A DNA stretch of 37,660 bases from Lentisphaeria bacterium (GTDB lineage: Bacteria; Verrucomicrobiota; Lentisphaeria; Victivallales; Victivallaceae): NCBI GenBank assembly GCA_017508015.1, contig JAFVZS010000103.1, positions 1 through 37,660 on the forward strand. Reading direction: 5' to 3'. The position numbers were made by a program, and so were the translations under genes. Shown in pieces: positions 1,096 through 37,660 of the stretch (positions within the stretch are counted from its first letter, which is position 1; each line of letters opens with the position of its first letter). Under the pieces are notes generated by a model. The model was given only the letters and a program-made list of their open reading frames with translations, was not told where the DNA came from and searched no databases.

Positions 1096-3642
1096 TCAGA
1101 TGCCGTACTGATCTTTATAGCAGGAAAAGATGTGTAACGCTGTCCGGTGCGGGGATGCTTCAGGAATGATCCTGACATCGGCATAAGCGGCAAAAAGTTC
1201 TCTGCGTTTCCGGTTCATCCGGATAAAAGCTTCCAGCGGATCATTTTCTCCGGCGAGAAATGGCGGCAGGCCATTTTTTCTGATTCTTTCAAAGGCAGTC
1301 TGATCATCCGTATCGATCCAGATGATAAATCCCAAAGCTTTTTTAACTTTTTCATCCACAAATGGGTTGCTCAAAGCTCCGCCGCCCAGGGCGATCACCC
1401 GTTTATGCGGAAATGCGGCCAATTCAGTCAGTACTTCCGCTTCGAGTCTCCGGAAAAATTCTTCGCCTTCGGCAGTGAAAATTTCCCGGCAGGTACGATT
1501 TTTGCCGTCGCGCTTTTGTACTTCGGCATCGCTGTCGACCAGCGGGATATCCAGAATCGCCGCCATTTCGGCACCGATGGTGCTTTTGCCGGAGTGTTTG
1601 ATACCGCACAGCACCATATTTTCCGGCAGACGGTGGGAGTTTTTGTAACAAAGCCACGAATCACGCAAATCCCGGCCGTGCCGGAAAAGTCCGGCAAATC
1701 CTTCACCGTCACCGGCTTCCAGACACCGGCGCATCTCATTCATGCTGGCCTGGAACTCATCAAGGGCCGGAAAGATCGCCTGCCGGTTGGCCATACAGAT
1801 CTCTTTCCACATTTCCGGCGAACTGGAAGCGATCCGTGAAGTATCCCGGAAACCGGTGGCACATCCGGAATAGTGACGCCGCTGTTCCGCAGCATCGCTT
1901 CTCTCAAGGATACTGCGGGTCAGAGCTGAAGCAATGATATGCAGCATGTGACTGGTATGAGCCACCAGAGCATCATGTTCAGCAGTGGATATCCGGCGGA
2001 TATGGGTATTGAGACTTTTCCAGAACTCCTCAACTGCAGCGATGCCGTATGAAGTGGAATATTTTCCCGGCACCACAAATACATCGGCATTGTCGTACAA
2101 TCCTTTGAAACCGCACCGGTAACCGCTTTTTTCCGTTCCGGCCATGGGATGGGAACCGACAAAATTGAAATCCGGAAAACTTTCTGCGGCACTCATCACC
2201 TGATTCTTGACACTGGCAATATCAGTAACGACCGCACCGGGTTTCAACAGATGGTGGTAAAGGCGGATGAATTTTTCCGTAACCGGGATCGGCAGACACA
2301 AAATCAGAATGTCAGCTCCGGCAAAAGCCGCTTCAACACTGTCATAAACGTTGTCAGCCAGACGTTGTTCAACGGCCCAGTCGCAAGCCTGACGGTTGCG
2401 GTTCCATACTGCGACCCGGTATTTGCGTTTATCAATGCTCAAAGCCAGCGATGAACCGAGCAATCCCAGACCGGCAATAACCACTTCCGGCCGGTCGTCA
2501 TCTGCAACAGCTTCTGATTCAAAGCGCATGGTATAATATTCCCGGAGTACAGCTGCGGTTTGAACCGGATCAAGATCGACCGTTTTCACCACCCCGGTAC
2601 GCAAAGGCAGCACCGCCCGGAAGCGGCCGTCGCCATTCTTTTTGTCACCTTTCATCAATTCGATGATGGAGGATATTTCCTGCCGCACCGCTGAAACCGG
2701 AAAATTTTCCGGAGCAATGGAAAAATGCTTGAGCAAATCGTACTGCTGCGAGGCACTTTCCCGGGAACACAAACCGAGTTTGCATGCGGTAAAAGCGGCA
2801 ATATCCATGCCGACTGCCACCGCTTCACCGTGAGCAAGACGGAAGTTGGAAAGGTGTTCAATGGCATGCCCGAAAGTGTGACCGTAATTAAGAAAGACCC
2901 GGCCGCTGTCACCGGATTCTTTTTCATCCTGCGACACCACCATCGCCTTGATCTGACAGGAACGTCTGACTGCATAACGGATCATTTCCGGGTCAGCGGC
3001 AATATCCGCCGGAGCATCAGCCAGCCGGGCGGCGAAATCCGCATCAAGGATCAGAGCAGTTTTGACGATTTCCGCCAGCCCGCTGCGAATTTCCCGGGCC
3101 GGAAGCGTTTGCAGCACATCGCAGTCGATCACCACCAGTTTCGGCTGATGAAAAGCACCGACCAGATTTTTTCCGTGCGGAGTATCCACTGCAGTTTTGC
3201 CGCCAACGGAACTGTCAACCATTGCCAGAAGCGATGTGGGTATCTGAATAAAATCCACTCCGCGCATAAACATGGCAGCGGCAAATCCGGTCAGATCACC
3301 GGTGACACCGCCGCCGAGAGCGGCAAACAGCGCATTGCGCCCCAGTTTCAAGGAACTGGCATAACCGCACAAAGCCATGGCATTGTCAATATTTTTGGAA
3401 GCTTCCCCGGCGGGAAAGATCCACTGATACACTGTTTTGCCGCTCTTTTCCAAAGCGGCTCTGGTACGCGGCAGATACCGGGCTGTATTGCTGTCAGCGG
3501 TGATCAGTACGTTTTTCTGAGGCAGGGCGGCAAAAGCAGCGATACTCTGCGGGGAGTCAACGGCACTGAAAATAATATCATAACTGCGTTCACCGAGTTC
3601 AACCCGGACTTTTCCGGTATCCATAATTGCAATCATTCCCAA
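1096..3642 (-). CDS. Trifunctional fusion: 3-dehydroquinate synthase, prephenate dehydrogenase, shikimate kinase
   Basis: One open frame of up to 848 residues carries three complete enzymes. Residues about 1-370 are AroB: GGGVTGD (110-116) is the NAD-binding loop, metal-ligand motifs NYGHTFGHAIE (252-262) and HGEAVAVGM (271-279) follow, then KGDKKN (331-336). Residues about 385-655 are TyrA-type prephenate dehydrogenase: a Rossmann GLGLLGSS motif (391-398) and GSHPMAGTEKSG (496-507). Residues about 675-848 are shikimate kinase: P-loop GIKHSGKST (680-688), the DSD motif near 703, and GGG at 753-755. The chain would perform steps 2 and 5 of the shikimate pathway and the tyrosine-branch oxidation in the cytoplasm. 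The longest frame opens at TTG (3642) with no ribosome binding site. ATG at 3636 or 3624 is as likely, the latter having GGGA about 12 bases upstream. The promoter is at 3678-3706. Domain assignments are secure, and the unusual feature is the three-way fusion. Confidence 0.93.
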   Translation of the reverse strand: MGMIAIMDTGKVRVELGERSYDIIFSAVDSPQSIAAFAALPQKNVLITADSNTARYLPRTRAALEKSGKTVYQWIFPAGEASKNIDNAMALCGYASSLKLGRNALFAALGGGVTGDLTGFAAAMFMRGVDFIQIPTSLLAMVDSSVGGKTAVDTPHGKNLVGAFHQPKLVVIDCDVLQTLPAREIRSGLAEIVKTALILDADFAARLADAPADIAADPEMIRYAVRRSCQIKAMVVSQDEKESGDSGRVFLNYGHTFGHAIEHLSNFRLAHGEAVAVGMDIAAFTACKLGLCSRESASQQYDLLKHFSIAPENFPVSAVRQEISSIIELMKGDKKNGDGRFRAVLPLRTGVVKTVDLDPVQTAAVLREYYTMRFESEAVADDDRPEVVIAGLGLLGSSLALSIDKRKYRVAVWNRNRQACDWAVEQRLADNVYDSVEAAFAGADILILCLPIPVTEKFIRLYHHLLKPGAVVTDIASVKNQVMSAAESFPDFNFVGSHPMAGTEKSGYRCGFKGLYDNADVFVVPGKYSTSYGIAAVEEFWKSLNTHIRRISTAEHDALVAHTSHMLHIIASALTRSILERSDAAEQRRHYSGCATGFRDTSRIASSSPEMWKEICMANRQAIFPALDEFQASMNEMRRCLEAGDGEGFAGLFRHGRDLRDSWLCYKNSHRLPENMVLCGIKHSGKSTIGAEMAAILDIPLVDSDAEVQKRDGKNRTCREIFTAEGEEFFRRLEAEVLTELAAFPHKRVIALGGGALSNPFVDEKVKKALGFIIWIDTDDQTAFERIRKNGLPPFLAGENDPLEAFIRMNRKRRELFAAYADVRIIPEASPHRTALHIFSCYKDQYGI

Positions 3643-9780: not shown

Positions 9781-12372
9781 TCACTGCTGAACTTTTTCCC
9801 GGAAATCCAATCCGTCACCGCTGATCACGGCCTCGATATCGGCACCGGCAGAGATTTCACCGGCGATGATCTTGCGTGACAGCGGCGTTTCCAACAGCCT
9901 GATCACGGCCCGTTTCAGCGGTCTGGCCCCGAAATCCGGATCATATCCGGCGGAAGCGATAAAGTCACACACTTCGTCGCTCACACTCAGAGTTATGCCG
10001 TTTTCCAGCAATCTGGCGGCCAGTTTGCTGATCTGGATCCGGGCAATATCCCGCAATTCAGCCTTGGAAAGCGTGTGGAATATGAGCGTTTCGTCGATCC
10101 GGTTGAGAAATTCCGGCCGGAAGTGGCGGCGCAATTCCAGATTGAGAGCATCTTTGAGTTTTTCCTCATCGCGGCCGTGATTTTCCAGAATCATGGCACT
10201 GCCCAGATTGCTGGTCATGATGATGATGGTGTTTTTGAAGTTCACCACCCGGCCCTGCGAATCGGTCACCCGGCCGTCTTCGAGAATTTGCAGCAGAATA
10301 TTGAAAACATCGGCATGGGCCTTTTCGATCTCATCAAAAAGTACCACCGCATAGGGACGGCGGCGGACGGCTTCAGTAAGCTGACCGCCTTCTTCATATC
10401 CGACATATCCCGGAGGCGCACCGATCAGACGGGAAACGCTGAATTTTTCCATATATTCCGACATATCGATTCGGATCATGGCTCTTTCATCGTCGAATAA
10501 CTGCCGGGCCAGCGACCGGGCCAATTCCGTCTTGCCTACGCCGGTAGGCCCGAGAAAGATGAAACTGGCGATCGGACGGGCCGGATCGTGAAGTCCGGCT
10601 CTGGCCCGCAGAACCGCATCACTTACGGCATTGACCGCCTCATTCTGACCGATGACACTGTGATGCAGAGTATCGGCAAGAGTGAGCAGTTTTTCCTTTT
10701 CACTCTGAACAAGTTTGGTCACCGGAATGTGTGTCCAGCGGCTGATGATCCGGGCGATATCCTCCTCATCGACCTCTTCTTTGAGCATTCTTTCGGCGTT
10801 TCCGGACTGGATCGCCGCTTCTGCCGCAGCGAGTTGACTTTCCAGTTTGGGAATGGTGCCGTGGCGCAATTCGGCGGCCCGTTCCAGATCGTATGAGCGT
10901 TCAGCTCTTTCCAACTGACCTCTGGCCAGATCGAGAGCTTCCCGGCAGTCACGCAATTTGGTGATAGCCTGTTTTTCATTATCGTAACGGGCCTGCAAAG
11001 CCTTACCGGCTTCCCGCAATTCGGCGGCCTCTTTTTCCAGAGCTTCCCGGCGGCGGATTCCGGAAGCATCTTTTTCATTGCGCAGACTGGTCAATTCGAT
11101 TTCCAGCTGCATAAGTTTGCGGCGGTTCTCATCCAATTCCAGCGGACTGCTTTCGATACCGGTGCGCAAAGCGGCGGCGGCTTCATCGACGAGGTCGATT
11201 GCCTTATCCGGCAGAAATCTTTCAGAAATATACTTATCTGACAACACGGCGGCGGCGACCAGTGCGCTGTCTTTGAGCCGGATGCCGTGATGCAATTCAT
11301 AACGTTCTTTCAGGCCGCGCAAAATGGAAATGGTATCTTCCACGCTTGGCGGATTGACCAGCACCGACTGGAAACGCCGTTCCAGAGCGGCATCTTTTTC
11401 AATATATTTACGGTACTCATCCAAAGTGGTGGCTCCGATGCAGTGCAATTCTCCGCGGGCAAGCATCGGTTTGAGCAAATTTCCGGCATCCATGGAACCA
11501 TCCCCGCCGCCGGCACCGACAACGGTATGCAATTCATCGATAAACAGAATGATTTTTCCCTCACCGGCAGTAACTTCTTTGAGAACAGCTTTGAGTCTTT
11601 CCTCAAATTCACCGCGGTATTTGGCACCGGCGATCAATGCTCCCATATCCAGAGCGACCACCGTGCGGTCTTTCAGACTTTCCGGCACATCTCCGGAAAC
11701 CACCCGTCTGGCGAGTCCTTCAACGATGGCAGTTTTGCCCACGCCGGGTTCACCGATCAATACGGGGTTGTTTTTGGTGCGCCGGGAAAGGATCTGAATG
11801 ACCCGGCGGATCTCCTCATCCCGGCCGATCACCGGATCAAGTTTATCCATTCTGGCCATTTGGGTAAGGTCACGGGAATATTTTTTCAAGGCCTCAAAAG
11901 TCGCTTCCGGTTCCGGGGAAGTCACCCGCTGATTGCCGCGCAAAGTCTGCAGCGTCTGCAGGATCTTATCGGCATTCAACCCGACGGAACCAAGCAATTT
12001 TGCACATTCTCCGCCATTGGCGGCCAGAGCCAGCAAAAGATGTTCGACACTGACATATTCATCGCCCATTTCGGCGGCTTTTTTCATAGCGGCATTGAGC
12101 ATGGTACTGAATTCCCGGGTCAGCATAACCTCCTGATCGCTGTGTCCTTCGACCCGCGGCAAGGCGGCAAGGGCAGCGGAAACTTTGCCGTTGAAAAGTT
12201 CCATATCGACATGATGCTGAATAAAAATGGAATTGACCAGATTTTCTTTATCTTCCAGCAGAGCTGCCAGCAGATGCAGCGGTGAAACTCCGAGATGATT
12301 GGCACTTTCGGCCAACTGTCTGGCATTGAGCAGAGCTTCCCGGCTTTTGGTGGTGAATTTTTCGATGTTCAT
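9781..12372 (-). CDS. clpB: ATP-dependent disaggregase ClpB
   Basis: ClpB extracts polypeptides from aggregates, working with the DnaK chaperone system in the cytoplasm. The 863-residue protein has the Clp N domain (1-145), a first AAA module with GEPGVGKT (207-214) and ILFIDE (275-280), and the ClpB-specific coiled-coil middle domain (about 410-530). The second AAA module has GPTGVGKT (608-615) and VVLFDE (676-681). Its length matches the family. The start at 12372 follows AAAGGAG at 7 bases and gives the typical MNIEKFT opening. The frame stays open upstream to 12738, but that part is translated repeat DNA. No CIRCE element or other clear heat-shock promoter is visible, and the leader contains a structured repeat (12415-12538). 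Confidence 0.97.
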
Positions 12373-12414
12373 ATTTTTTTCTCCTTTCATAATATCAGTA
12401 ATAAATCTAACCTG

Positions 12415-12538
12415 CGGCGGCGTCCTGCGGGCAATCTCTTGCCAAATCTGCGGACAGCGTTTGGGTCGAGTATGCTTATACACTCCCCAAAACGCCGCCT
12501 TGATTTGACTTCGACCTTGCTCCGCAATCCATCCACCG
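12415..12538 (-). repeat. Nested-hairpin repeat, copy 2
   Basis: Read on the minus strand it runs from CGGTGGATGG to GCCCGCAGGACGCCGCCG and aligns along its length with 17143-17266. Shared blocks are GCAAGGTCGA, TCAAATCAAGG, GGAGTGTA, ACTCGAC and GATTTGGCAAGAGATTGCCC. The inner arm here is GCGTTTGGG (12457-12465) against CCCAAAACGC (12486-12495), whereas the copy at 17143 has TAACGGT against ACCGTTA. Both arms have changed while the pairing is kept. It lies in the leader of clpB. Confidence 0.8.
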
Positions 12539-12678
12539 ATTGCAAACAGGCCTTTCTCTCCGTCATTGTCCGCCGGAACCTCTGTACTGTATTCATAACC
12601 GGGCGGACGTTGCTTTCCATATTTCCATTTATGATACAAGCAATTTTTGTGCCGGAAGCAATTTTCAGCACAAATAAC

Positions 12679-12707
12679 TTGAAAACAGGTGTGCAAAGGT
12701 GTATATT
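12679..12707 (+). promoter_or_regulatory. Promoter for the SpoU/TrmH methyltransferase
   Basis: TTGAAA (12679-12684), a 17-bp spacer, and TATATT (12702-12707) sit 64 bases before the chosen start codon at 12771. Confidence 0.7.
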
Positions 12708-12770
12708 TATGACCCGGCAGCGTGTCATAACTGCACACATTTACAGTTTAAGAGAAAGAAGTGGATTTTT

Positions 12771-19593: not shown

Positions 19594-19887
19594 TCACTTT
19601 TCATCCAGTTCCCGCAGGATCATTTCGACCGGGGTGAGGTACTTTTTTTCCTGATTGCACCGGCGGCAGCAGACGACCATATTGCCGCGGGTACTGCGGC
19701 CGCCGCGGGAAAGCGGCACGATGTGGTCAATGGTCAACTCAGCGGCCGGAAACTTCTCTTTACAGTAGTAACATTCACCTTTGCGGAAAAGTTCCTGAAA
19801 ATATGCCGTATTGCGCAACTGCCGTGCTTTGGCTCTTTCCCGTTTTACATGAGCATCATCTTTATTGATCTCAATCCACTCATCCAT
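19594..19887 (-). CDS. HNH endonuclease-domain protein
   Basis: The 97-residue protein has a charged N-terminal helix (KRERAKARQLRNTAYFQELF) and a zinc-finger HNH domain: C39-x2-C42, the catalytic-type DH at 54-55, N69, and C74-x2-C77 with N78. HNH domains cut DNA or RNA using one metal ion. Small stand-alone ones occur in restriction, mobile and repair systems, and many are of unknown role. Its ATG lies inside the end of the receiver-domain gene (overlap ATGGATGA, 8 bases), so translation is probably coupled. A longer in-frame reading to 20013 only translates the neighbouring gene in another frame. Whether it is an active nuclease is not known. Confidence 0.8.
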   Translation of the reverse strand: MDEWIEINKDDAHVKRERAKARQLRNTAYFQELFRKGECYYCKEKFPAAELTIDHIVPLSRGGRSTRGNMVVCCRRCNQEKKYLTPVEMILRELDEK

Positions 19888-20290
19888 TGACTGCCTCCGG
19901 CATATCCAGCACGCGGCGGATCTCTTTGATAACCACCGGCAGACGGTGCGGTTTGGGCAGAAAGCCGCATGCGCCCTGTTCCAGAAGATCCGACACTTCG
20001 CTTTCCGAAACAAAACCGCTGGAAAGCAGAACCTTGACCGACGGGTCGATCGCTTTCAAGCGCAGAAATGTCTGATGTCCGCCGGCTTTGGGCATGATCA
20101 TATCCAAAAGCACCAGATCGATCTGATCCGGATTGGCTTCATAAATTTCCACGGCATCCAAACCGTTTTCCGCCAGCAATACCGAATAACCCAATTCACT
20201 TAACGCATCGATCAGAAAATCCCAGATCGTTTCATGATCATCGACGATCAGAATTGTTTCATTGCCGCCGGGCAAAATATTTTCACTCAT
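19880..20290 (-). CDS. Stand-alone response-regulator receiver domain (CheY-like)
   Basis: The 136-residue protein is a single REC domain: acidic pair D17 D18, phospho-acceptor D63 (in LLDMIMP), S90 in the switch position, and K113 in LPKP. It has no DNA-binding or enzyme output domain. Such proteins pass phosphate in relays or act through binding partners. No histidine kinase gene is nearby. Its gene overlaps the HNH gene by 8 bases, which makes the HNH protein a possible output partner (inference). The ATG at 20290 has only a weak upstream GGTGTG. The promoter at 20478-20506 would give a leader of about 180 bases that includes repeat DNA. Confidence 0.88.
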   Translation of the reverse strand: MSENILPGGNETILIVDDHETIWDFLIDALSELGYSVLLAENGLDAVEIYEANPDQIDLVLLDMIMPKAGGHQTFLRLKAIDPSVKVLLSSGFVSESEVSDLLEQGACGFLPKPHRLPVVIKEIRRVLDMPEAVNG

Positions 20291-20595: not shown

Positions 20596-23500
20596 TTACG
20601 TAAAGACCTCGATCACCTGCCGGATTTTCAAAGCACAAATGAATCCCTTTATCTTTTCCGGCGGGATATCCAGCATGACCGCCAGAGATTCCCGGTAACT
20701 TTGCAACTGCGGAAAATATACTGCAAAATCTGCCGCTGAAGTAAATTTGTCACTCTTATAATCAAAAATTTCCGCCCATACCGGTACGCCGTTTTCCTTA
20801 TGGATAACCACCCGGTCAAAGGCACCGGGAACCATTTCTCCGGCCCGGTTGATCAACAGGAAACGCCTTTCACACCACAACTCATATTCGCCGTCAGGTT
20901 CACCAAAGATCTGTCTGACCGGCGAAGTGCTATCCATTGCCTGAATAAATATTTCAGCTGCCGCCGGTTCCGCCCCATGCACAGCACAAAACTCTGCCGC
21001 ATCAAAGGAATCTCCGGCAAAGTGCAATTTTTCAAAAAGTTCATGAACTGCCGTTCCCGTATTTTTGCCAGTAAACGGAGTAAAACGCGCTCCCGGTGCG
21101 ACAGCGGATGCCGCACTTTTTTCACCGGAAGCAGCTCTTACTTTACGGCACACTTCCCGTACCACCGGAAAAGTTACAGCCGGTTCATTGTCACCCTCAC
21201 CGGCCGGAGCGATCTCCGGAGCATATTGGATATACCAGTGCCAATCTCCGTGAGAAAAGAGCAGTTGCGCCTGATATCCGGCAAGTTCCGGCAAAGAAAG
21301 CAATTCCTGCAGTTGGGTATCGGAATTTTGCACCCCATACGGCGGGAGCTGTTCCATAAGCAGTTTATCCGGGGAAAATGCTCCGGTAATGTTATTGCGG
21401 GAGGTCAGCATGTAAAGAGCCGACTTTGCCCGGGTCATACCGACATAGAGTGCACAGCACTTTTCAAACAGCCGGTCAGACTCTTTGCGTTGCAGATGTT
21501 CAGCAAGCTGCGGCACGTTTTCGGCGATATGCTTATCAGGCAAATAGGTCACCCATGCCGGAGTTTGTATGGTATCGGCCCACTCATTTTCGCCGTAATG
21601 GATGATCTCCGCTTCCGGCAGACAACTGCCGCCGTTATAATTGTGGACGATCAGATCCGGCATGAAAACGACGTCAAATTCCAAACCTTTAGCCTTGTGA
21701 CAAGTCATGATCTGAATGGTTTCATCCAGTGAATTATCACTTTTGCCGAGGCGGTCGATCTGCCGGAGAAATTCCCCGGCACTGCCGTCAAAAGCGGCGG
21801 CGGCATCATTGAGTATCTCCAGACGGCGGCGGTCAAACGGAGTGCATTCAAGACGGAAAACCTCCAGAAAACGTTTGGCAAAACCGGCAAGTCCGTTGAT
21901 GAAAAGTTCCTCTCTGACAGCTTCATCCAGAGGCAATGCCGGATCAAATCCCAGTTTGACAGCCAGTTTTTCCCGGGTGAGCAACTCCGGAACATCTTCC
22001 GGTGCGGCAAAGCAGAGCATATCCAGAAACTTTCCGGCCTCCGCATCTCCGGGATGCTCTGCCAGGATCAGCAATTCCCGGAAAAGGCTGAATGCCATAC
22101 TGTCCACCGGCGAAACCGTACCATCCACCGACACCGGCAGTTGATATACGCTTTTCAATACCTCGGCAAATTCCCGGGCCACCGCATTGGTCGATACCAG
22201 CACCCCCACGGTCAAATGCCGCTGCAATGCCCGTGACTGCTGCAGCAGTGTATTGATCACGGCACTTTTTGCCGGGATATTCTGAGCCGACTGCGGAGAA
22301 CTTTGTGCCACATTGATCAATGCCGTATGACCGGGCATCTGCAAATCACTGCTGATATGGAATTGAAACTGCATCTGCCGCAGCACCCGGTGAAAAAGTT
22401 CAAAATTTCCGTCGTAACTGCCGAATACCGCATTGACCGTATCCAATACCGCCTGACTTGAACGGTAGGAGCGCACCAGTGAATCCGCCGGCGTATAGCC
22501 GAGCTGTTCTCCGACCGGGCGGAGCAGATTGGTAACATAATTGAAAAGTTCCGGATTGCCGTCGCGCCACTGATAGATGGATTGCTTGATATCGCCGACA
22601 CAGAAAAAGCTGCGGAATTCCCCGGTATCAAGCTGGCTGAAAAGTTCCCTGAGCAGCGGATCAAACACCCGCATTTGCACATCACTGGTATCCTGAAATT
22701 CATCGAACATATAATGACGTATCTGCCGGTCAAGACGGAATTCCAGCGAATGATCCGACGGTCCGAGAATGATCTGCCGGGTATTTTCATCCATTGCTGT
22801 CAACAGTGCCGGCAGGTCGGAAAAAGTGATATTACCGGCACTGCGCACATATTTGCCGTAAATCCGGTCAAACTCGGCGATCAAACCGAAAACCGCCAGA
22901 TTTTTGGCCCGGCACTGCCGCAGAGCCGCCGCCCGGATATGCCGGAATGCCCGGCGCAGCAACGGTGCCAGTGATGGCGGCGGCGCACACCCCCGCCAGT
23001 AGGTCAGCGGGGCATCCGCCGGATCATCCGGCCATGAGCCGCCGTTTTTCTCATTCAGGATTTTCAGCAAACTTTCCACATCGCCGTCAAGTTTGCCGTA
23101 CATCACTCCGGAAGTGCACTTTTCCAACATACCGGCCAGAGCCGTCAACCGGCGGGCCATCACCTCATTGACTGCGGATATTTTTTCAGCTTCAAACCGC
23201 AATTCTCCGGTCAATTCCTGAAGTTCCCCGGAATCGGGAAACACCGGCAAATTCTGCCATGGCACCCGGTCAAGCTGAGGTAATGAACCGTCTGCATCCG
23301 GATGGATTTTCAATTGATAGAAGTGATGGACACTTTGCGCCAGTTCATAAATGGCAGCATATATCGAGCGGGTATCCCCGGAACCGGCCTCTTTGAGCAA
23401 TTCCCGCAAAGCATCAAGCTGCACGCCGTCGGGTATTGAACGGATCCAGCGGTGTATCGTGCGGCGGAGAAAACGGTCATCGCTTTCATCGGTCATGGCG

Positions 23501-26500
23501 ATATCCCCCCAGATGCCCAGTTCCGGAGCGAATGCCTGAAGCAGCTGCATGAAAAAGCTGTCGATGGTGCTGATTTGCAGTTCCCGGGTGTGATTGCCCA
23601 ACAGTTTGCGGATCAGGGAAATCACCTGTTCATGATCCATCTGCAAACAGCGGTTTTCCGGCCGTTCCGGTTTGAGAGCCAGTTCACAAATCCGGCGGAC
23701 GATCCGGTCGAATATCTCACCGGCGGCTTTTTTGGTAAAGGTGATAGCCAGGATCGACTCCGGTTCAGCCCCGTAAGAGAGCAGTTGGATGAAACGGGAA
23801 GCCAGTGAATAGGTTTTGCCGGTTCCCGCTGAAGCGGTGATGATATTGAAACTTTTAAAGCCGTTGAAACTGCGGCATGCCGCACAATCCCCGCCGCAGC
23901 AGCCGCATTTACTGCGGATCTCCGGCGGACAATCACAACATCTGGAGCGTCCCGCGAAATCCAACTCCGGCAGAGCCGGAAAACGTTTTTGCGGCACGGC
24001 AGATTCTTTGACCGGAAGAGTTTTTCCGGCACTTTTTCCGGACTTTTCCGGCTGAATATCTTCCGCACACTCGCCATTTTCCGGTTTCAACCACCGGAAC
24101 CCCCGCAGAGCGTGGAGCGTATCCGGCTGAAGCAGCGGCACACGGAGTTTTTCCGGATCACCGGGGAGCTGCTGTTGCGGGAAATGCCGGATCTCTTCCA
24201 CGATCCGGCCGATCTCCGATTCCGCCACCGGCAAAACTTGTGCCAGATCATCAGCGGGCCATACCTCAAGGGCACTTGCCGTCACTTCCGATGGCAGAGC
24301 CAGATAGGCACACTCGATCTCCGCACTGTCGATCATCGGACAAAGTTCCCGGAATGCCGGATCGTTTTTCAACAGCAAAACGTAGGCGGGCAGCTGCAGA
24401 CGTTTGAATCCGCTCAACTGTTTCCGGCGGTCAAAACGGCAGTGTTCTTTTATCACATTATCCACTTTGCCGGTTTTGATATCGATCACCCGCAGAATAT
24501 TTTTCCGGCGGTTATACTCGATACGGTCGACCTTTCCCCGGAAAGCCGCCCCCTGAAAAATAACATATTGCTCACTGCCGCCGAATTTATATTCAGTTGC
24601 CAGCAATTCAAAACCGTCATTTTGACTTTCAAAAAGCAATTTTGCTCCGTAAGAGAGCCGTTGTTTCATATTGACCGCAAAAAGCTTGAGCAATACCGGC
24701 AACGGCGAACCGAAACGGCGGCACAATGTCGCATCGAAATTGGCATGCAAGGCTTTTTCCAGAGCTTCTGCCGAAGGGAACCGGCGGCCGGACGGTAATT
24801 TTTCAAATGCTTCATGGCAGAGTGTACCGCCCAGAGCCGGATCGGGTTCACAGCGGGAGTAATCCACGCTTTGCATTTTCAAAACATTTTCCCACCAGAA
24901 GATGAACGGGGCCGACAGATAATTGTCAAGATCGGTCACCGAAAGATTCATACGTTGATTTTCATCACGTTTGAAATCAAGTTGTGCTTTCAGAAAAAAT
25001 TCTTTATTTCCGGCGGGAGATTCTGCAACTTTCAAAGCCGGAGGGTCGCGGAAAAGTTTGGCACAGCGTGCAAGTAATGTTTTTTCCGGCAGATTTCCGC
25101 CGAAAAATATACCGGAAGGCCGCAATGCAGACCCGTCACTGCCGGAGCGCAGCACGATCAATTGCAAATCTCCATCCCGGCGTGAAGCGGAAACACCGGC
25201 CAGATGACAAAGTGACCTTGCCAGAGTTTCCCGATTGCTTCTGATTCCGATTTTCTGCCGGATGGAATCAGTCAGAAACGGGGTGAGATCGATGCGGTCA
25301 GGGAAAAATTTTTCATTCACTCCGCAAAAGATCAGCCGTTTTTGAGTAAGGAACGGCATTTCCAGACGTCCCTCAAAATAGAGAGCTCCCGGCGGCAAAG
25401 CGGTGGTGATCTTCTCATTGCGGCAATTACGGAAAAATATTTCGATCAGCGTGATCTTACTGATCGTGCCGGTCAACTTTTCCGGCAGAGCGGCGAAATT
25501 TTCCAGTGCTCCGGTAAAAAAGTCACATTCTGCATCAAAATCCACGCCCATCACCGGTGCCGGTACCGGCCGGTTGCGGTAAACATCGGTAAAAAAGTCC
25601 CGGAGAAAACCGGCCGGAGAGAGTTTTTCCGACTGTTTTTTCCAGAAAGATATGCGTTGCAGAGCTTTTTCAAGTTTCCGCCATGCCGGAAAAGCGGCGA
25701 TATGCCGGAGCGCATGATCGAAGTTATCCGGCATCATATCAAGCTGAAACTCATCAAGTTCCTGTAAAAGTTCCCGGCACTTTTCCCGGCCGCCGGCCAG
25801 ATAGATGAGAAAATCCTCCTGCCGGATCAATTCGGAAGCATAGAGAAAGTCATCGGCATTTTTGAGATATTCGAGCAAGGTTTTTCCCAAACGGCAGAGC
25901 CGCAGAGATTTCAACGGCACTCCGGAAGGATCGGCAATGGTGACCTGACGGCCCTCCTCATTTTTCAAATCGGCAAATTCCCGGGCGAAATCCTCATAGA
26001 GCGACTGGTCGGCCAGAACGATGGCACACTCTTCCGGATCAAACAGACCATGGTTTCCGGCCAGTATCATTGCCCGGCGTGCGCCGTCAGCCGGATCGAC
26101 TGCCACATGGATATTGCCGGTATCGCAGTTAAATGGCAGATTTTCCCATTTTTCAACGACCGGGACTCCCCACTCATCGTAAAGATCGGCCATATTTTCA
26201 TGATCACCGATCCAGATTTCGATCAGACCGGGGAATTTTTCATCGATCAGAGCCAGCTTCTGCTGAAGCATCTGCGGCACGTCGGGCAATCCGGCCAGAA
26301 TGATCTTTTCCACCCCGGCAAAAGCCCCGGTATCCTGCACCGCCTGCCGGTCGCAAGCCAACGGATCGGTCAGGCCGCAACCGGCCAATTCCTGACAGTA
26401 ACGGTACTCCAGACGGCTCAATTCCCCGCCCCGGCTGCCGAGCGATGCGGCTGCATCAGCGATGGAAAATCCTCCGGCAGCCAATTCCAGACGCAACTGC

Positions 26501-26877
26501 CGCAACTGACCGGCGGCGACGAAATTTTCCACCGGAACCAGACCGGCGGGAAAGATTTCCGGGAAATCCTCTTTGTGTTCCGCCGCCCGCTGCAAAACTC
26601 TGCCCCAGATGATCTCCTCTGCCACCGGTGACGGCAGATTTGCCTCCGGAAGTCCGTAATGCATAAGCAAATGAGGCGTGAGCAGCTGCGGCAGCAGCAG
26701 ACCGCGGGGATAATGTTTCAAAAGTTCTCTGCGGACATTGCTCCGGGCGACCTTTCCCGGCAGAACCAGTAATATTCTGCCGAAATCAGGCAACGCCGCC
26801 GGTTTGAGTTCAGCCAATCCGGCTGCCACGGTTACCGGCAGAGTGCATTCATTACCCAGAAAGATCCTTTTTGCCAT
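20596..26877 (-). CDS. Single-chain AddB-AddA-like helicase-nuclease
   Basis: AddAB resects double-strand breaks to start homologous recombination and destroys foreign linear DNA. It is normally two subunits. Here one 2093-residue chain carries both. Residues 1-930 resemble AddB: an inactivated helicase-like part with no Walker A motif, then a PD-(D/E)XK nuclease (GTLCHEAFEKL with H688, D784, and D799-I-K801). Residues about 1005-2093 resemble AddA: Walker A ASAGTGKT (1015-1022), TFTKKAAGE (1046-1054), FDEFQDTS (1391-1398), GDIKQSIYQWRDG (1428-1440), TCHKAKGLEFD (1725-1735) and YVGMTRAKS (1811-1819). A second nuclease follows (H1945, D2021, D2039-Y-K2041). The junction has eight cysteines (980-1001). 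Ala656 replaces the first iron-sulfur cysteine of classical AddB. The gene starts 15 bases after the aconitase stop without a clear ribosome binding site, so coupling is likely. Confidence 0.9.
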   Translation of the reverse strand: MAKRIFLGNECTLPVTVAAGLAELKPAALPDFGRILLVLPGKVARSNVRRELLKHYPRGLLLPQLLTPHLLMHYGLPEANLPSPVAEEIIWGRVLQRAAEHKEDFPEIFPAGLVPVENFVAAGQLRQLRLELAAGGFSIADAAASLGSRGGELSRLEYRYCQELAGCGLTDPLACDRQAVQDTGAFAGVEKIILAGLPDVPQMLQQKLALIDEKFPGLIEIWIGDHENMADLYDEWGVPVVEKWENLPFNCDTGNIHVAVDPADGARRAMILAGNHGLFDPEECAIVLADQSLYEDFAREFADLKNEEGRQVTIADPSGVPLKSLRLCRLGKTLLEYLKNADDFLYASELIRQEDFLIYLAGGREKCRELLQELDEFQLDMMPDNFDHALRHIAAFPAWRKLEKALQRISFWKKQSEKLSPAGFLRDFFTDVYRNRPVPAPVMGVDFDAECDFFTGALENFAALPEKLTGTISKITLIEIFFRNCRNEKITTALPPGALYFEGRLEMPFLTQKRLIFCGVNEKFFPDRIDLTPFLTDSIRQKIGIRSNRETLARSLCHLAGVSASRRDGDLQLIVLRSGSDGSALRPSGIFFGGNLPEKTLLARCAKLFRDPPALKVAESPAGNKEFFLKAQLDFKRDENQRMNLSVTDLDNYLSAPFIFWWENVLKMQSVDYSRCEPDPALGGTLCHEAFEKLPSGRRFPSAEALEKALHANFDATLCRRFGSPLPVLLKLFAVNMKQRLSYGAKLLFESQNDGFELLATEYKFGGSEQYVIFQGAAFRGKVDRIEYNRRKNILRVIDIKTGKVDNVIKEHCRFDRRKQLSGFKRLQLPAYVLLLKNDPAFRELCPMIDSAEIECAYLALPSEVTASALEVWPADDLAQVLPVAESEIGRIVEEIRHFPQQQLPGDPEKLRVPLLQPDTLHALRGFRWLKPENGECAEDIQPEKSGKSAGKTLPVKESAVPQKRFPALPELDFAGRSRCCDCPPEIRSKCGCCGGDCAACRSFNGFKSFNIITASAGTGKTYSLASRFIQLLSYGAEPESILAITFTKKAAGEIFDRIVRRICELALKPERPENRCLQMDHEQVISLIRKLLGNHTRELQISTIDSFFMQLLQAFAPELGIWGDIAMTDESDDRFLRRTIHRWIRSIPDGVQLDALRELLKEAGSGDTRSIYAAIYELAQSVHHFYQLKIHPDADGSLPQLDRVPWQNLPVFPDSGELQELTGELRFEAEKISAVNEVMARRLTALAGMLEKCTSGVMYGKLDGDVESLLKILNEKNGGSWPDDPADAPLTYWRGCAPPPSLAPLLRRAFRHIRAAALRQCRAKNLAVFGLIAEFDRIYGKYVRSAGNITFSDLPALLTAMDENTRQIILGPSDHSLEFRLDRQIRHYMFDEFQDTSDVQMRVFDPLLRELFSQLDTGEFRSFFCVGDIKQSIYQWRDGNPELFNYVTNLLRPVGEQLGYTPADSLVRSYRSSQAVLDTVNAVFGSYDGNFELFHRVLRQMQFQFHISSDLQMPGHTALINVAQSSPQSAQNIPAKSAVINTLLQQSRALQRHLTVGVLVSTNAVAREFAEVLKSVYQLPVSVDGTVSPVDSMAFSLFRELLILAEHPGDAEAGKFLDMLCFAAPEDVPELLTREKLAVKLGFDPALPLDEAVREELFINGLAGFAKRFLEVFRLECTPFDRRRLEILNDAAAAFDGSAGEFLRQIDRLGKSDNSLDETIQIMTCHKAKGLEFDVVFMPDLIVHNYNGGSCLPEAEIIHYGENEWADTIQTPAWVTYLPDKHIAENVPQLAEHLQRKESDRLFEKCCALYVGMTRAKSALYMLTSRNNITGAFSPDKLLMEQLPPYGVQNSDTQLQELLSLPELAGYQAQLLFSHGDWHWYIQYAPEIAPAGEGDNEPAVTFPVVREVCRKVRAASGEKSAASAVAPGARFTPFTGKNTGTAVHELFEKLHFAGDSFDAAEFCAVHGAEPAAAEIFIQAMDSTSPVRQIFGEPDGEYELWCERRFLLINRAGEMVPGAFDRVVIHKENGVPVWAEIFDYKSDKFTSAADFAVYFPQLQSYRESLAVMLDIPPEKIKGFICALKIRQVIEVFT

Positions 26878-26892: not shown

Positions 26893-28830
26893 TCAGCAGT
26901 TGAGACGGCCGCCGGCCTTGACCAGACGGATATCATTTTCAGAAAGCGGATGAGTAAAGAGTATTTCGATCTCTTTACCATCGGCTTTGCACAATGTGCC
27001 TCTGACTTCGCTGCCGGGAGCAAGCTGACCGGGAAGTCCGGCGAATTTGAGTGAATCATTTTCCTCAATAAGCTCATAGTCGGCCGGATTTTTGAAGATC
27101 AGCGGCACAATGCCGAAGTTGATCAGATTGGCCCGGTGGATCCTTTCGATCGCCAGAGCGGCCACCACTTTGATTCCCAGATACATCGGGCAGATGGCGG
27201 CATGTTCGCGGCTGGAACCCTGACCGTAACTGTCACGGCCGATGATCACGCCGTGTTTACCGGCATCCCGCACGGCGGCGGCCCGCTGGGCGAAACTTGG
27301 TTTGCCATTTTCCGTAAAGCACTCAAAAACCACCTTGCTGTAAGCCGGAATGTTACTGCGCAGTTTAAGATGCACACCGGCAGGCATAATGTGGTCAGTG
27401 GTAATTTTGTCACCGACCTTGATCACCACGACACCGTCGAGATTTTCCGGCAGAGGATCATTTGACGGCGGCTCACCGATGGTCGGTTTGCGGATGATCC
27501 CTCTGCCCGGTTCACCTTTCTGGAAGTGTTCATCGTCGGAGGTGTAAAATTCCGGTTCGGCGATTTCGGGGAATGGCACTCCGGTTTCGCGCGGATCGAT
27601 AAATTCACCGGTAATGGCGGCGGCGACGGCAGTTTCCGGGCTGACCAGATAAGATTGATCGCCTTTGGTGCCGCTGCGGCCGGCGAAGTTGCGGTTGAAT
27701 GTACGCACGGTAATGGTGTCATCCGCCGGACTCTGTCCCTGACCGATACACGGTCCGCAGCCGACTTCCAGTATCCGCGCTCCGGCGGCGACCAGATCGC
27801 CGAGCATGCCGTTGGCGCAAAGCATTTCCAGCACCGGACGGCTTCCGGGGGCGATACCCAGAGTCACATCCGGATGCACTTTGCGGCCCTTGAGTGCCGA
27901 AGCGACCAGAGCAAGATCGCGGTAACCGCCGTTGGTACAACTGCCGACCAGCACCTGACCGACCTTTTTACCGGACAATTCTTTAACGGTTTTGATATTA
28001 TCCGGACTGGAAGGACAGGCCGCCAGCGGTTCAAGAGTATCAAGGTCGATCTCCACCACCCGGTCATATTCGGCATCGGCATCGGCGGCAAGAGCCGTAA
28101 AGTCGGCCTCACGTTTCTGACGGCGGAGAAATTCTCTGGTACGCTCATCGGCCGGAAACACACTGGTGGTCACGCCCAATTCGGCTCCCATATTGGTGAT
28201 CGTGGCCCGCTGAGGCACGCTCAAATCAGCCACACCGGGGCCGAAATATTCCACGATGGATCCGACGTTGCCCTTGGTGGTCAGAATGCTCAACAGTTTC
28301 AATATCACATCTTTGGCGGCGACCCACGGGCGGAGTTTTCCGGTCAGTTTCACGCCGATGATTTTTGGAGTGGGAATGGTAAAAGGCTGTCCGGCCATTG
28401 CCAGAGCCACATCCAGACCGCCGGCACCGATGGCGATCATACCGATGCCGCCGCCGGTGGGGGTGTGACTGTCGGAACCGATCAGGGTTTTGCCCGGTTT
28501 GCCGAATCTTTCCAGATGCAGCTGGTGACAGATACCGTTGCCCGGAGGAGAAAAGACCACGCCTTTTTCGGCGGCGACGGTTTGCAGATAGAGGTGGTCA
28601 TTGCGGTTTTCCGGTCCGTTCTGCATCATATTGTGATCGACGTAAGAGACGGATAATTCGGTGGCGACTTTGCCGGTTTTCATTGCCTCAAGTTCCAGAT
28701 ACGCCATAGTTCCGGTGGCATCCTGCGTCAGGGTTTGATCGATTTTGATCAGCAGCTGACTGTCTTTTGCCGGATCGCCGGAAACCAGATGGGCGGCAAT
28801 AATTTTCTGAACGAGTGTACCACGGGCCAT
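26893..28830 (-). CDS. Aconitate hydratase (short, Aquifex-type)
   Basis: Aconitase isomerises citrate and isocitrate in the citric acid cycle using a 4Fe-4S cluster. The 645-residue protein has the cluster cysteines C298 (GSCTNGG) and C358 and C361 (CGPCIGQG), substrate motifs GSDSHTPTGGG (118-128) and NRNFAGRSG (379-387), and the C-terminal swivel domain (about 450-645) with GRDSYGQGSSREHAA. Its length fits the short single-chain family and not the 850-900-residue AcnA or AcnB. The start at 28830 has AAGGA about 10 bases upstream. Its promoter is at 28876-28904. It appears to share a transcript with the AddB-AddA gene behind it. The two have no obvious functional link. Confidence 0.94.
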   Translation of the reverse strand: MARGTLVQKIIAAHLVSGDPAKDSQLLIKIDQTLTQDATGTMAYLELEAMKTGKVATELSVSYVDHNMMQNGPENRNDHLYLQTVAAEKGVVFSPPGNGICHQLHLERFGKPGKTLIGSDSHTPTGGGIGMIAIGAGGLDVALAMAGQPFTIPTPKIIGVKLTGKLRPWVAAKDVILKLLSILTTKGNVGSIVEYFGPGVADLSVPQRATITNMGAELGVTTSVFPADERTREFLRRQKREADFTALAADADAEYDRVVEIDLDTLEPLAACPSSPDNIKTVKELSGKKVGQVLVGSCTNGGYRDLALVASALKGRKVHPDVTLGIAPGSRPVLEMLCANGMLGDLVAAGARILEVGCGPCIGQGQSPADDTITVRTFNRNFAGRSGTKGDQSYLVSPETAVAAAITGEFIDPRETGVPFPEIAEPEFYTSDDEHFQKGEPGRGIIRKPTIGEPPSNDPLPENLDGVVVIKVGDKITTDHIMPAGVHLKLRSNIPAYSKVVFECFTENGKPSFAQRAAAVRDAGKHGVIIGRDSYGQGSSREHAAICPMYLGIKVVAALAIERIHRANLINFGIVPLIFKNPADYELIEENDSLKFAGLPGQLAPGSEVRGTLCKADGKEIEILFTHPLSENDIRLVKAGGRLNC

Positions 28831-28875
28831 AATAATAATTCCTTTCAGCATTTACAGTTGTTTACTTATGCATAT

Positions 28876-30548: not shown

Positions 30549-31655
30549 ATGGAATATTCAGCAAAGATCATTTCCACCAAAGTCATTGCCAAAGCGGCAG
30601 ACAAATATCTGGCGTGGCCGACGATCATCCGCCGGAAAAACGGCGAATTGCTCGTGGTCTATTCCGGAGACCGGCTTTTGCATTGCTGCCCATACGGCAA
30701 AACGCTGCTGATCCGCAGCAGTGATTGCGGTGAAACGTGGAGTGCCCCGGAAATAATCACCGATACGCCGCTGGATGACCGGGATGCCGGAATTCTGGAA
30801 ACGGATCAGGGAACTTTGATCGTCAGCCACTTCACCAGCATCGGTTTTGAGAATCCGGATGTGATGAAGTGGGTATTTCCCGAATCTCCGGAGCTGGTGA
30901 AAGAAGCGATGGCCTCATGGGCGCATATTTCTGAAAAATTGAGTGATGAGACCCGGGATAAATTTCTGGGCAGTTGTCTGCGCCGCTCGACCGATGGCGG
31001 CAAAACCTGGGGACCGCTGCTCCGGGTGGCTCCGTCAACGCCGCATGGACCGGTCAAATTGCGTGACGGCCGTCTGCTCTATGTCGGGCGCACGATCTAC
31101 GGCCCGGATGCCGAAGCACCGCTGGCGGCAAAGAAAAGCTGTACTCCGGATCTTTCCTGTGTGGAGATCCACGAATCGGTCGATGACGGTTTGAGTTGGC
31201 ATAAGATCGGGTCGATCCCGAAAAATGAAAAGTATAAATACGGTTGTGAACCATATTGTGTGGAGTGCGCTGACGGCAGACTGGTGACATTTCTGCGGGA
31301 AACGATCATGGGAGTTTCCGAAAGCACCGATGGCGGCAGAACATGGAGCGAACCGGTGTCGACCGGCATTACCGGTTATCCGCCGCACTTTTACACACTT
31401 GCTGACGGCAGGATACTGCTGGTTTACAGCTGCCGTTTTGAGCCGAATGGACAATTTGCCCGGATCAGTGATGACAACGGGCGCACTTGGAGCGAAAGAT
31501 TTCAACTTTCCTTTGCTCCGGATGCCGATCACGGATATCCGGCCTCGACCCAGCTGCCCGACGGCTCGATATTGACGGTTTATTACGAGATAGATCAACC
31601 CGGTGAAAAAACTTCCATCAAGCTGGTTCACTGGATTCTGGAGGAGAAAAAGTAA
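30549..31655 (+). CDS. Sialidase-fold (BNR/Asp-box) protein, cytoplasmic
   Basis: The 368-residue protein is a six-bladed propeller of the sialidase superfamily. Five Asp boxes of the form S-x-D-x-G-x-x-W are visible: 57-65 (SSDCGETWS), 147-155, 210-218, 259-267 and 307-315. An arginine in the WPTIIRRKNG segment (near 28) and another near 250 could belong to the arginine cluster that binds a carboxylate. It has no signal peptide, so it should act in the cytoplasm on imported oligosaccharides. Superfamily members include exo-sialidases but also other glycosidases and non-enzymes, so substrate is open. AAGGG precedes the ATG. Its stop overlaps the next gene by one base. Confidence 0.85.
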   Translation: MEYSAKIISTKVIAKAADKYLAWPTIIRRKNGELLVVYSGDRLLHCCPYGKTLLIRSSDCGETWSAPEIITDTPLDDRDAGILETDQGTLIVSHFTSIGFENPDVMKWVFPESPELVKEAMASWAHISEKLSDETRDKFLGSCLRRSTDGGKTWGPLLRVAPSTPHGPVKLRDGRLLYVGRTIYGPDAEAPLAAKKSCTPDLSCVEIHESVDDGLSWHKIGSIPKNEKYKYGCEPYCVECADGRLVTFLRETIMGVSESTDGGRTWSEPVSTGITGYPPHFYTLADGRILLVYSCRFEPNGQFARISDDNGRTWSERFQLSFAPDADHGYPASTQLPDGSILTVYYEIDQPGEKTSIKLVHWILEEKK

Positions 31656-36567: not shown

Positions 36568-36668
36568 TGCGGGCGGCGAAATATAAACGACACCACCTGC
36601 CGACAGCGAAGTTGCGCAATTTATTTGCGCAACATTTGAGCGCAGGGCAGTAAAAATGTGCGGCAGGT
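36568..36668 (-). repeat. GGCAGGTGGTGTCG hairpin module, copy 2
   Basis: The complement shares TTACTGCCC, GCTCAA-TGT, ACTTCGCT and GGCAGGTGGTGTCG with 16945-17002. Its hairpin is GTTGCGCAA/TTGCGCAAC (36611-36619 and 36625-36633), different in sequence from GTCATGC/GCATGAC in the other copy. The outer arms ACCTGCCG (36595-36602) and CGGCAGGT (36661-36668) also pair. Beyond it toward 36500 is a trimmed copy of the double-hairpin module. It lies just upstream of the last gene. Confidence 0.75.
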
Positions 36669-36714
36669 TGACGTACCATTTGAGTCAGAAAAATTAAGAT
36701 GGAAAGAAAATGCC

Positions 36715-37660
36715 ATGTCCAGAAGTGAATGGTTGTTTGAGTCGGGTGAAAACAATCCCCGCAACTCCGAGGGCTCTTTTGTAACCTTGAATGACGGCAG
36801 GATCCTTTTTGCCTATTCCCGTTACACCGGCAAAACGCAGGAAGATCATGCCGATTGCGAAATCGCCTGCTGTTATTCAAATGATGACGGAATCACCTGG
36901 AGCAAACCGGAAACCATGTTCACCAATGAAACCGGCGGTAAAAATGTGATGTCGGTATCGTTTCTGCGACTGCATTCCGGCCGGATAGTGATCTCCTGTC
37001 TGTCAGAAAAGTTCCTGCCCGGTGAAACGTATTCCAGTTTGATCCCGGTCTGCCGTTACTCTGACGATGAGGGCAAAACGTGGAGCGAAATCAAATTGAT
37101 GTCCACCTTTTCCAACCGTACCGGTATGAATAATGACCGCATGATCCAGTTGAAAAGCGGCCGGATCATCGCTCCGGTCTGGCGCACCGTGGTAGTTGAC
37201 ACCCCCAAAGGCAACGATTTCCTGCCCCGGATAACTTCGATCATCTATTCGGATGATGACGGCGAAAACTGGTATGGTTTCCCCGGTGCGGTCTTCCCGG
37301 TCAACGGCAGTATGACCGGTATGCAGGAGCCGGGAGTCGTCGAATTGAGTGACGGCCGGATTTTGATGTGGATGCGCACCGATCTGCTCTGCCAGTACCA
37401 CTGTTATTCATCCGATCAGGGCGAGACCTGGAGTCAGGCCCTGCCGTGGAAACCATTTCCCTGCACCGTGACCCCGTTATCTGTCAAGCGTGATCCGGCC
37501 GACGGCAAATTGATCGGTATCTGGAGCGACGGCGACCCCCGGTGGGGCGTGAAGATCGTACCGGAAGATTCATGGGACCGCACCCCGTTTGCCATGGCAA
37601 TCAGCCGCGATGAGGGTAAAACCTGGGGCGAAAAGGTGCTGCTGGAAGATGACCCCCGCC
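36715..37660 (+). CDS. Sialidase-fold (BNR/Asp-box) protein, 3' end outside the window
   Basis: An open frame from ATG 36715 runs without a stop to the window end (315 codons), so the gene is cut. Translation gives Asp boxes SNDDGITWS (55-63), SDDEGKTWS (116-124), SDDDGENWY, SSDQGETWS and SRDEGKTWG, plus repeated LSDGRI-type strands. These are the marks of the sialidase superfamily propeller. There is no signal peptide. It is a different subfamily from the protein at 30549-31655. GGAAAG lies about 9 bases before the ATG. The two other frames at nearby ATGs close quickly, which supports this start. The gene continues the glycan locus. Confidence 0.88.
   Translation, partial: MSRSEWLFESGENNPRNSEGSFVTLNDGRILFAYSRYTGKTQEDHADCEIACCYSNDDGITWSKPETMFTNETGGKNVMSVSFLRLHSGRIVISCLSEKFLPGETYSSLIPVCRYSDDEGKTWSEIKLMSTFSNRTGMNNDRMIQLKSGRIIAPVWRTVVVDTPKGNDFLPRITSIIYSDDDGENWYGFPGAVFPVNGSMTGMQEPGVVELSDGRILMWMRTDLLCQYHCYSSDQGETWSQALPWKPFPCTVTPLSVKRDPADGKLIGIWSDGDPRWGVKIVPEDSWDRTPFAMAISRDEGKTWGEKVLLEDDPR

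Follow-up and report, generated by a model that had tools for sequence, protein, structure and literature searches.

The window, by which we mean the whole 37,660-nucleotide stretch analysed here, is contig JAFVZS010000103.1 of a Lentisphaeria bacterium. Its source genome is a MAG of 1.49 Mb in 121 contigs, 61% complete, and every genome compared with it is also a MAG. The minus strand encodes one very long protein, in which an AddB-like half is followed by an AddA-like half (Table 1). The ORF opens with ATG and, at the coordinates given by the original prediction (which named no strand), has no internal stop across its 2093 codons. The upstream neighbor is an aconitase gene, an adjacency that is kept in eight of the ten species carrying the fused gene, and the two genes are probably co-transcribed. 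A small HNH protein gene lies downstream of the fused gene, again in eight of the ten species. In the window this HNH endonuclease-like ORF (19594-20013, minus strand) and a response-regulator receiver ORF on the same strand (19880-20290) overlap.

Table 1. Features of the fused addB-addA gene and its upstream neighbor (window coordinates).
Feature	Residues	Coordinates	Strand	Remarks
Fused addB-addA gene	1-2093	20596..26877	-	2093 aa + stop, unbroken ORF, ATG start
AddB half	1-929	24091..26877	-	inactivated helicase-like domains, then nuclease
AddB PD-(D/E)XK nuclease	645-893	24199..24945	-	PDDEXK_1 E 1.7e-20 (Pfam)
Variable linker	930-977	23947..24090	-	low pLDDT; predicted disordered
Cysteine module CxCP..CxC..C	978-1004	23866..23946	-	directly before helicase motif I
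AddA SF1A helicase motor	~1005-1915	21133..23865	-	UvrD-helicase E 5e-37
AddA PD-(D/E)XK nuclease	~1930-2093	20599..21090	-	within AddA profile match
Aconitase gene		26893..28851	-	15 bases upstream of addB-addA; PRK07229 854 bits

The second half had been predicted to hold a full UvrD-type helicase and a second nuclease, and both were found there. Pfam UvrD helicase domains span residues 1007-1827, and motif I (SAGTGKT, 1016-1022) and motif II (DEFQDT, 1392-1397) are invariant in the 10 fused proteins. The profile of this half matched Bacillus AddA (3u44_A) end to end with an E-value of 2.5e-83, with RecB behind at 1.4e-58. The half thus combines SF1A motifs with an intact Walker A and DExx box, a C-terminal nuclease, and a better score for AddA than for RecB, the features by which we assigned it to AddA. 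Its nuclease residues H1945, D2021, D2039, K2041 and Q2057 are invariant in 30 AddA sequences from several phyla. The predicted model of this half (pLDDT 80) agrees with the AddA identity, and UvrD-type motors score as well as AddA when matched against its motor part alone.

For the first half the sequence models gave a weak match, addB_alphas of NCBIfam at an E-value of 1.8e-9, confined to the nuclease part. The residues of this nuclease (H688, D784, D799, K801 and Q828) do not vary among 30 AddB sequences drawn from several phyla; D784, D799 and K801, together with D2021, D2039 and K2041 of the second half, lie exactly where they had been predicted and are invariant in the ten fused orthologues. 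An AF2 model of residues 1-1002, which includes the linker (the AddA half was modeled separately), reached a mean pLDDT of 87. Its top five structural matches were all Bacillus AddB chains, with RecC and AdnA next; 4cei_B was matched with a Foldseek E-value of 2.9e-24 and a VIA-align Z of 19.9 over 829 residues at 4.5 A. The predicted fold of this half has the arrangement that defines AddB, inactivated helicase-like domains ahead of a PD-(D/E)XK nuclease. As predicted, it carries no Walker A (G-x4-GK-[ST]) in any of the ten fused proteins, and the Fe-S-type C-x2-C-x(4-7)-C pattern is absent from all ten AddB halves as well. Both Walker A and the Fe-S cysteines occur in subsets of AddB only, and neither is required. 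The profile search with the AddB half yielded no sequence alignment to Bacillus AddB, and therefore the Bacillus ionic-latch residues E129 and R629 (PMC4824097) could not be mapped onto the fused protein. In NCBIfam the second half matched models of AddA and RecB-like proteins, and the first half weakly matched the AddB model; every one of these matches falls below the curated cut-offs, so automatic annotation may miss the AddB-AddA name. Sequence profiles and predicted models identify AddB as the first half and AddA as the second; the two nucleases and the single helicase motor are all intact.

The MAG sources, and split sister genes that are only a few bases apart, could hint that two neighboring genes had been read as one through an assembly or base-calling artefact. 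We looked for a missed stop or frameshift near the junction and found none. The same unbroken frame occurs in nine further congeneric species, giving ten fused ORFs of 2082-2115 aa, and the orthologues are 42-65% identical to the window protein. These genes come from separate MAGs and different assemblies, agree on the frame, and form one clade; their linker is new sequence devoid of stops, which in two of the genes also lacks any start codon. Ten independent frames refute an assembly error or missed stop, and the chance of an artefact is negligible. A separate start for AddA is impossible in the two genes L006 and L011, as the roughly 105 codons spanning the junction contain no ATG, GTG or TTG. 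No conserved internal start was found, and none is common to the remaining fused genes. In four congeners that are 90-95% complete (G015, G021, G017 and G010) the fused gene is present in a single copy only. A putative second AddBA on contig C60 of G012 equals that of G021 in both score and frame length and was treated as cross-contamination. We also searched the 61% complete genome of the window for separate addA and addB genes and found none; the only other UvrD-like match was a frame of about 700 aa.

The two halves are joined by a linker that shows the highest nonsynonymous divergence of all regions and is nevertheless free of stops in all ten species. Divergence is moderate across the domains, rises to high values in the linker only, and drops back to a low level in the cysteine module; judged by these rates, all the domains are under purifying selection. 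With about 50 residues, the linker is plausibly long enough for a heterodimer-like arrangement of the halves. An exposed, fast-evolving segment that is predicted to be disordered may also be a site of cleavage, in which case the fused protein would be a precursor and the working enzyme would remain a normal AddAB heterodimer, with only synthesis coupled by the fusion. We consider this unlikely, as a tether would be expected to be disordered in any case, and no cleavage-like motif is evidently conserved among the linkers of the ten fused proteins. The predicted fixed 1:1 ratio of the two subunits follows from the gene structure, and it holds as long as the finished chain is not cleaved.

The cysteine module that follows the linker is conserved in all ten fused proteins, and the four split congeneric AddAs begin with its CxC...CxC core in their N-terminal region. 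The AddA of other Lentisphaeria and of the outgroups lacks the module, which is thus limited to this genus, in fused and split forms. Since the split congeneric AddAs carry it too, the module predates the fusion. It matched no Pfam family (zinc_ribbon_6 at an E-value of 0.95 provides no evidence). The cysteine pattern suggests a possible metal site, and our guess is that the module may stabilize or tune the motor.

To trace the origin of the fusion we built one tree for the AddA half and another for the AddB half. In both, the fused proteins form one clade (SH-aLRT 99 and 98, respectively), which indicates a single fusion event. In the tree of the concatenated halves the fused clade obtained 100/100 support, with the split congeners and other Lentisphaeria outside. 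Terminal branches within the clade measure 0.24-0.71 changes per site, and therefore the fusion is not recent. Four congeners (G002, G006, G016 and G026) carry addB followed directly by addA as split genes. In G016 both genes share one frame, interrupted by a lone TGA that is followed by six bases and then the ATG of addA. The fusion arose a single time, when an addB-addA operon in one genus of uncultured gut Lentisphaeria lost the stop codon of addB, and it has been kept since. Several other long frames were rejected as fusions: in G007 (1500 aa), G352 (1766 aa) and G310 (1422 aa) the frames merely overlap; in G016, G051, G341 and G355 in-frame stops separate the halves; and G787 (1980 aa) was set aside on its differing frame lengths alone.

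The original prediction had proposed to look for the same fusion in related genomes, and it was found in ten species of this one genus. Of the 34 genomes that represent the genus, 10 carry the full-length fused frame, which was found nowhere else. No further fused AddBA ORF appeared in 137 genomes of the order or 198 of the class, and none in samples of 388 genomes of the phylum and 392 of Planctomycetota. A scan of GTDB species genomes with an alignment as the query (a single-protein query gave no match) placed all fused ORFs among the best 80 matches in the same relatives; fusions in more distant phyla are possible. Among these 80 matches the closest named relative is SUWG01000001.1 (65% identity), and the nearest named relatives are MAGs of Lentisphaerae/Lentisphaeria, several of them from sheep colon. 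One split-gene congener, labeled Victivallaceae, came from horse faeces (n=1). AddAB and RecBCD are known to replace each other (PMC1193525), and in this genus an AddAB match was found in 15 of the 34 genomes (one of them, G007, of a distant type), RecC (PF04257) in 17, and both in none. The two genomes with neither are both incomplete. RecC was not found in any fused genome, the 61% complete genome of the window included. The GC-rich, congener-labeled G007 (contig C283, L118/L046) carries an AddAB unlike that of the rest of the genus, acquired by horizontal transfer or present through contamination.

The best explanation of the whole, to which we assign a probability of about 0.87, is a natural AddB-AddA fusion of single origin that performs AddAB-type end resection. 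In Bacillus AddAB one SF1A motor works with two nucleases, each dedicated to one strand, and once Chi is bound the 3′ strand is protected against the AddA nuclease (PMC4824097). The fused protein keeps all the catalytic parts, and for this reason a Bacillus-type reaction explains it best. Its chain runs from the AddB scaffold, which in Bacillus is a Chi-scanner-type domain, and the AddB nuclease through the linker of about 50 residues and the cysteine module to the AddA SF1A motor and nuclease, and would fold like the AddAB heterodimer. The enzyme would load on double-strand ends and unwind them with its single AddA motor, while the AddA nuclease would cut the 3′-ended strand and the AddB nuclease the 5′-ended strand, leaving 3′ overhangs prepared for RecA. 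The role is likely end resection of the ordinary AddAB type, with the two halves held at a 1:1 ratio; we infer the activity, the strand assignment, the Chi response and the uncut chain as the working form. As defense systems share UvrD motors, and PADLOC models of GajB and of a DRT helicase match the motor, the protein might instead be a dedicated anti-phage helicase-nuclease and not a housekeeping repair enzyme. This seems very unlikely, as the PADLOC matches cover no more than short stretches of the UvrD motor that these systems have in common, and the protein is the sole AddAB- or RecBCD-type enzyme found in the fused genomes. The conserved setting beside aconitase and the descent from the ordinary addB-addA of the order also fit a resection enzyme better.

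In comparison with known systems, the AddAB of Bacillus subtilis (PDB 3u44, 3u4q, 4ceh, 4cei and 4cej) has the same folds, one AddA motor and two PD-(D/E)XK nucleases, but is made of two polypeptides, whereas the enzyme described here is one ORF in ten species. The fused AddB also differs from that of Bacillus in lacking Walker A and the C-x2-C-type Fe-S cysteines, and the AddA part in having the extra N-terminal cysteine module. The closest homologues are the split addB-addA pairs of the four congeners, alike in gene order and in the AddA cysteine module but with addB and addA as distinct genes, either overlapping or spaced by a few bases; the pair of G016 is one in-frame TGA away from fusion. 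RecBCD performs the same task with a RecB-like motor and nuclease and a RecC-like scaffold fold, to which the AddB half was matched more weakly (Z 16.6). RecC has no nuclease, whereas the AddB half keeps one. Mycobacterial AdnAB is, like the fused enzyme, a two-nuclease helicase complex, but of two chains; AdnA matched the AddB-half model with a Z of 16.9, compared to 19.9 for AddB, and AdnB scored below AddA in the profile search.

The single-chain AddB-AddA is a rare natural rewiring of the well-understood AddAB. The original prediction knew of no such class, and we found no paper on a natural AddB-AddA fusion in the open-access literature, which does not prove priority; the main survey of the distribution of AddAB and RecBCD is reportedly that of Cromie in 2009. 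AddAB serves as a model for coordinating one motor and two nucleases at a DNA break. The fused form and its two-gene sisters allow a direct test of subunit dissociation or exchange, for example at or after Chi, and offer a one-gene enzyme for single-molecule work. Matched states, one fused and one a single stop codon short of fusion, may serve the study of how repair enzymes become fused.

A comparable joining was seen in the alternative enzyme of the genus. In one congener (G020, contig C192, L047:5913-12110, minus strand) RecC and RecB lie in one ORF of at least 2066 aa that runs off the contig end and has new linker sequence without a stop; this was seen in one MAG only. In G005 and G032, the closest relatives of G020, one in-frame stop separates the RecC and RecB genes. 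We found no natural RecB-RecC fusion in the open-access literature. A doubtful joint reading would be that the single-chain form was selected in this genus and alters the enzyme by keeping AddB and AddA fixed to each other, with the RecC-RecB ORF as a parallel outcome; the cysteine module, placed between the AddB nuclease and the AddA motor, may then replace the missing AddB Fe-S staple or gate the handover of DNA between the halves.

Elsewhere in the window, an 848 aa ORF (1096-3642, minus strand) combines 3-dehydroquinate synthase, prephenate dehydrogenase and shikimate kinase in an AroB-TyrA-AroK-like fusion. The ClpB ORF (9781-12738, minus strand) has about 125 extra residues ahead of the start of the ClpB model, which may be a start-site artefact. 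On the plus strand, BNR-repeat (sialidase-like) proteins are encoded at 30549-31655 and 36658-37659 near a GntR regulator, a region that is possibly a glycan-use locus.
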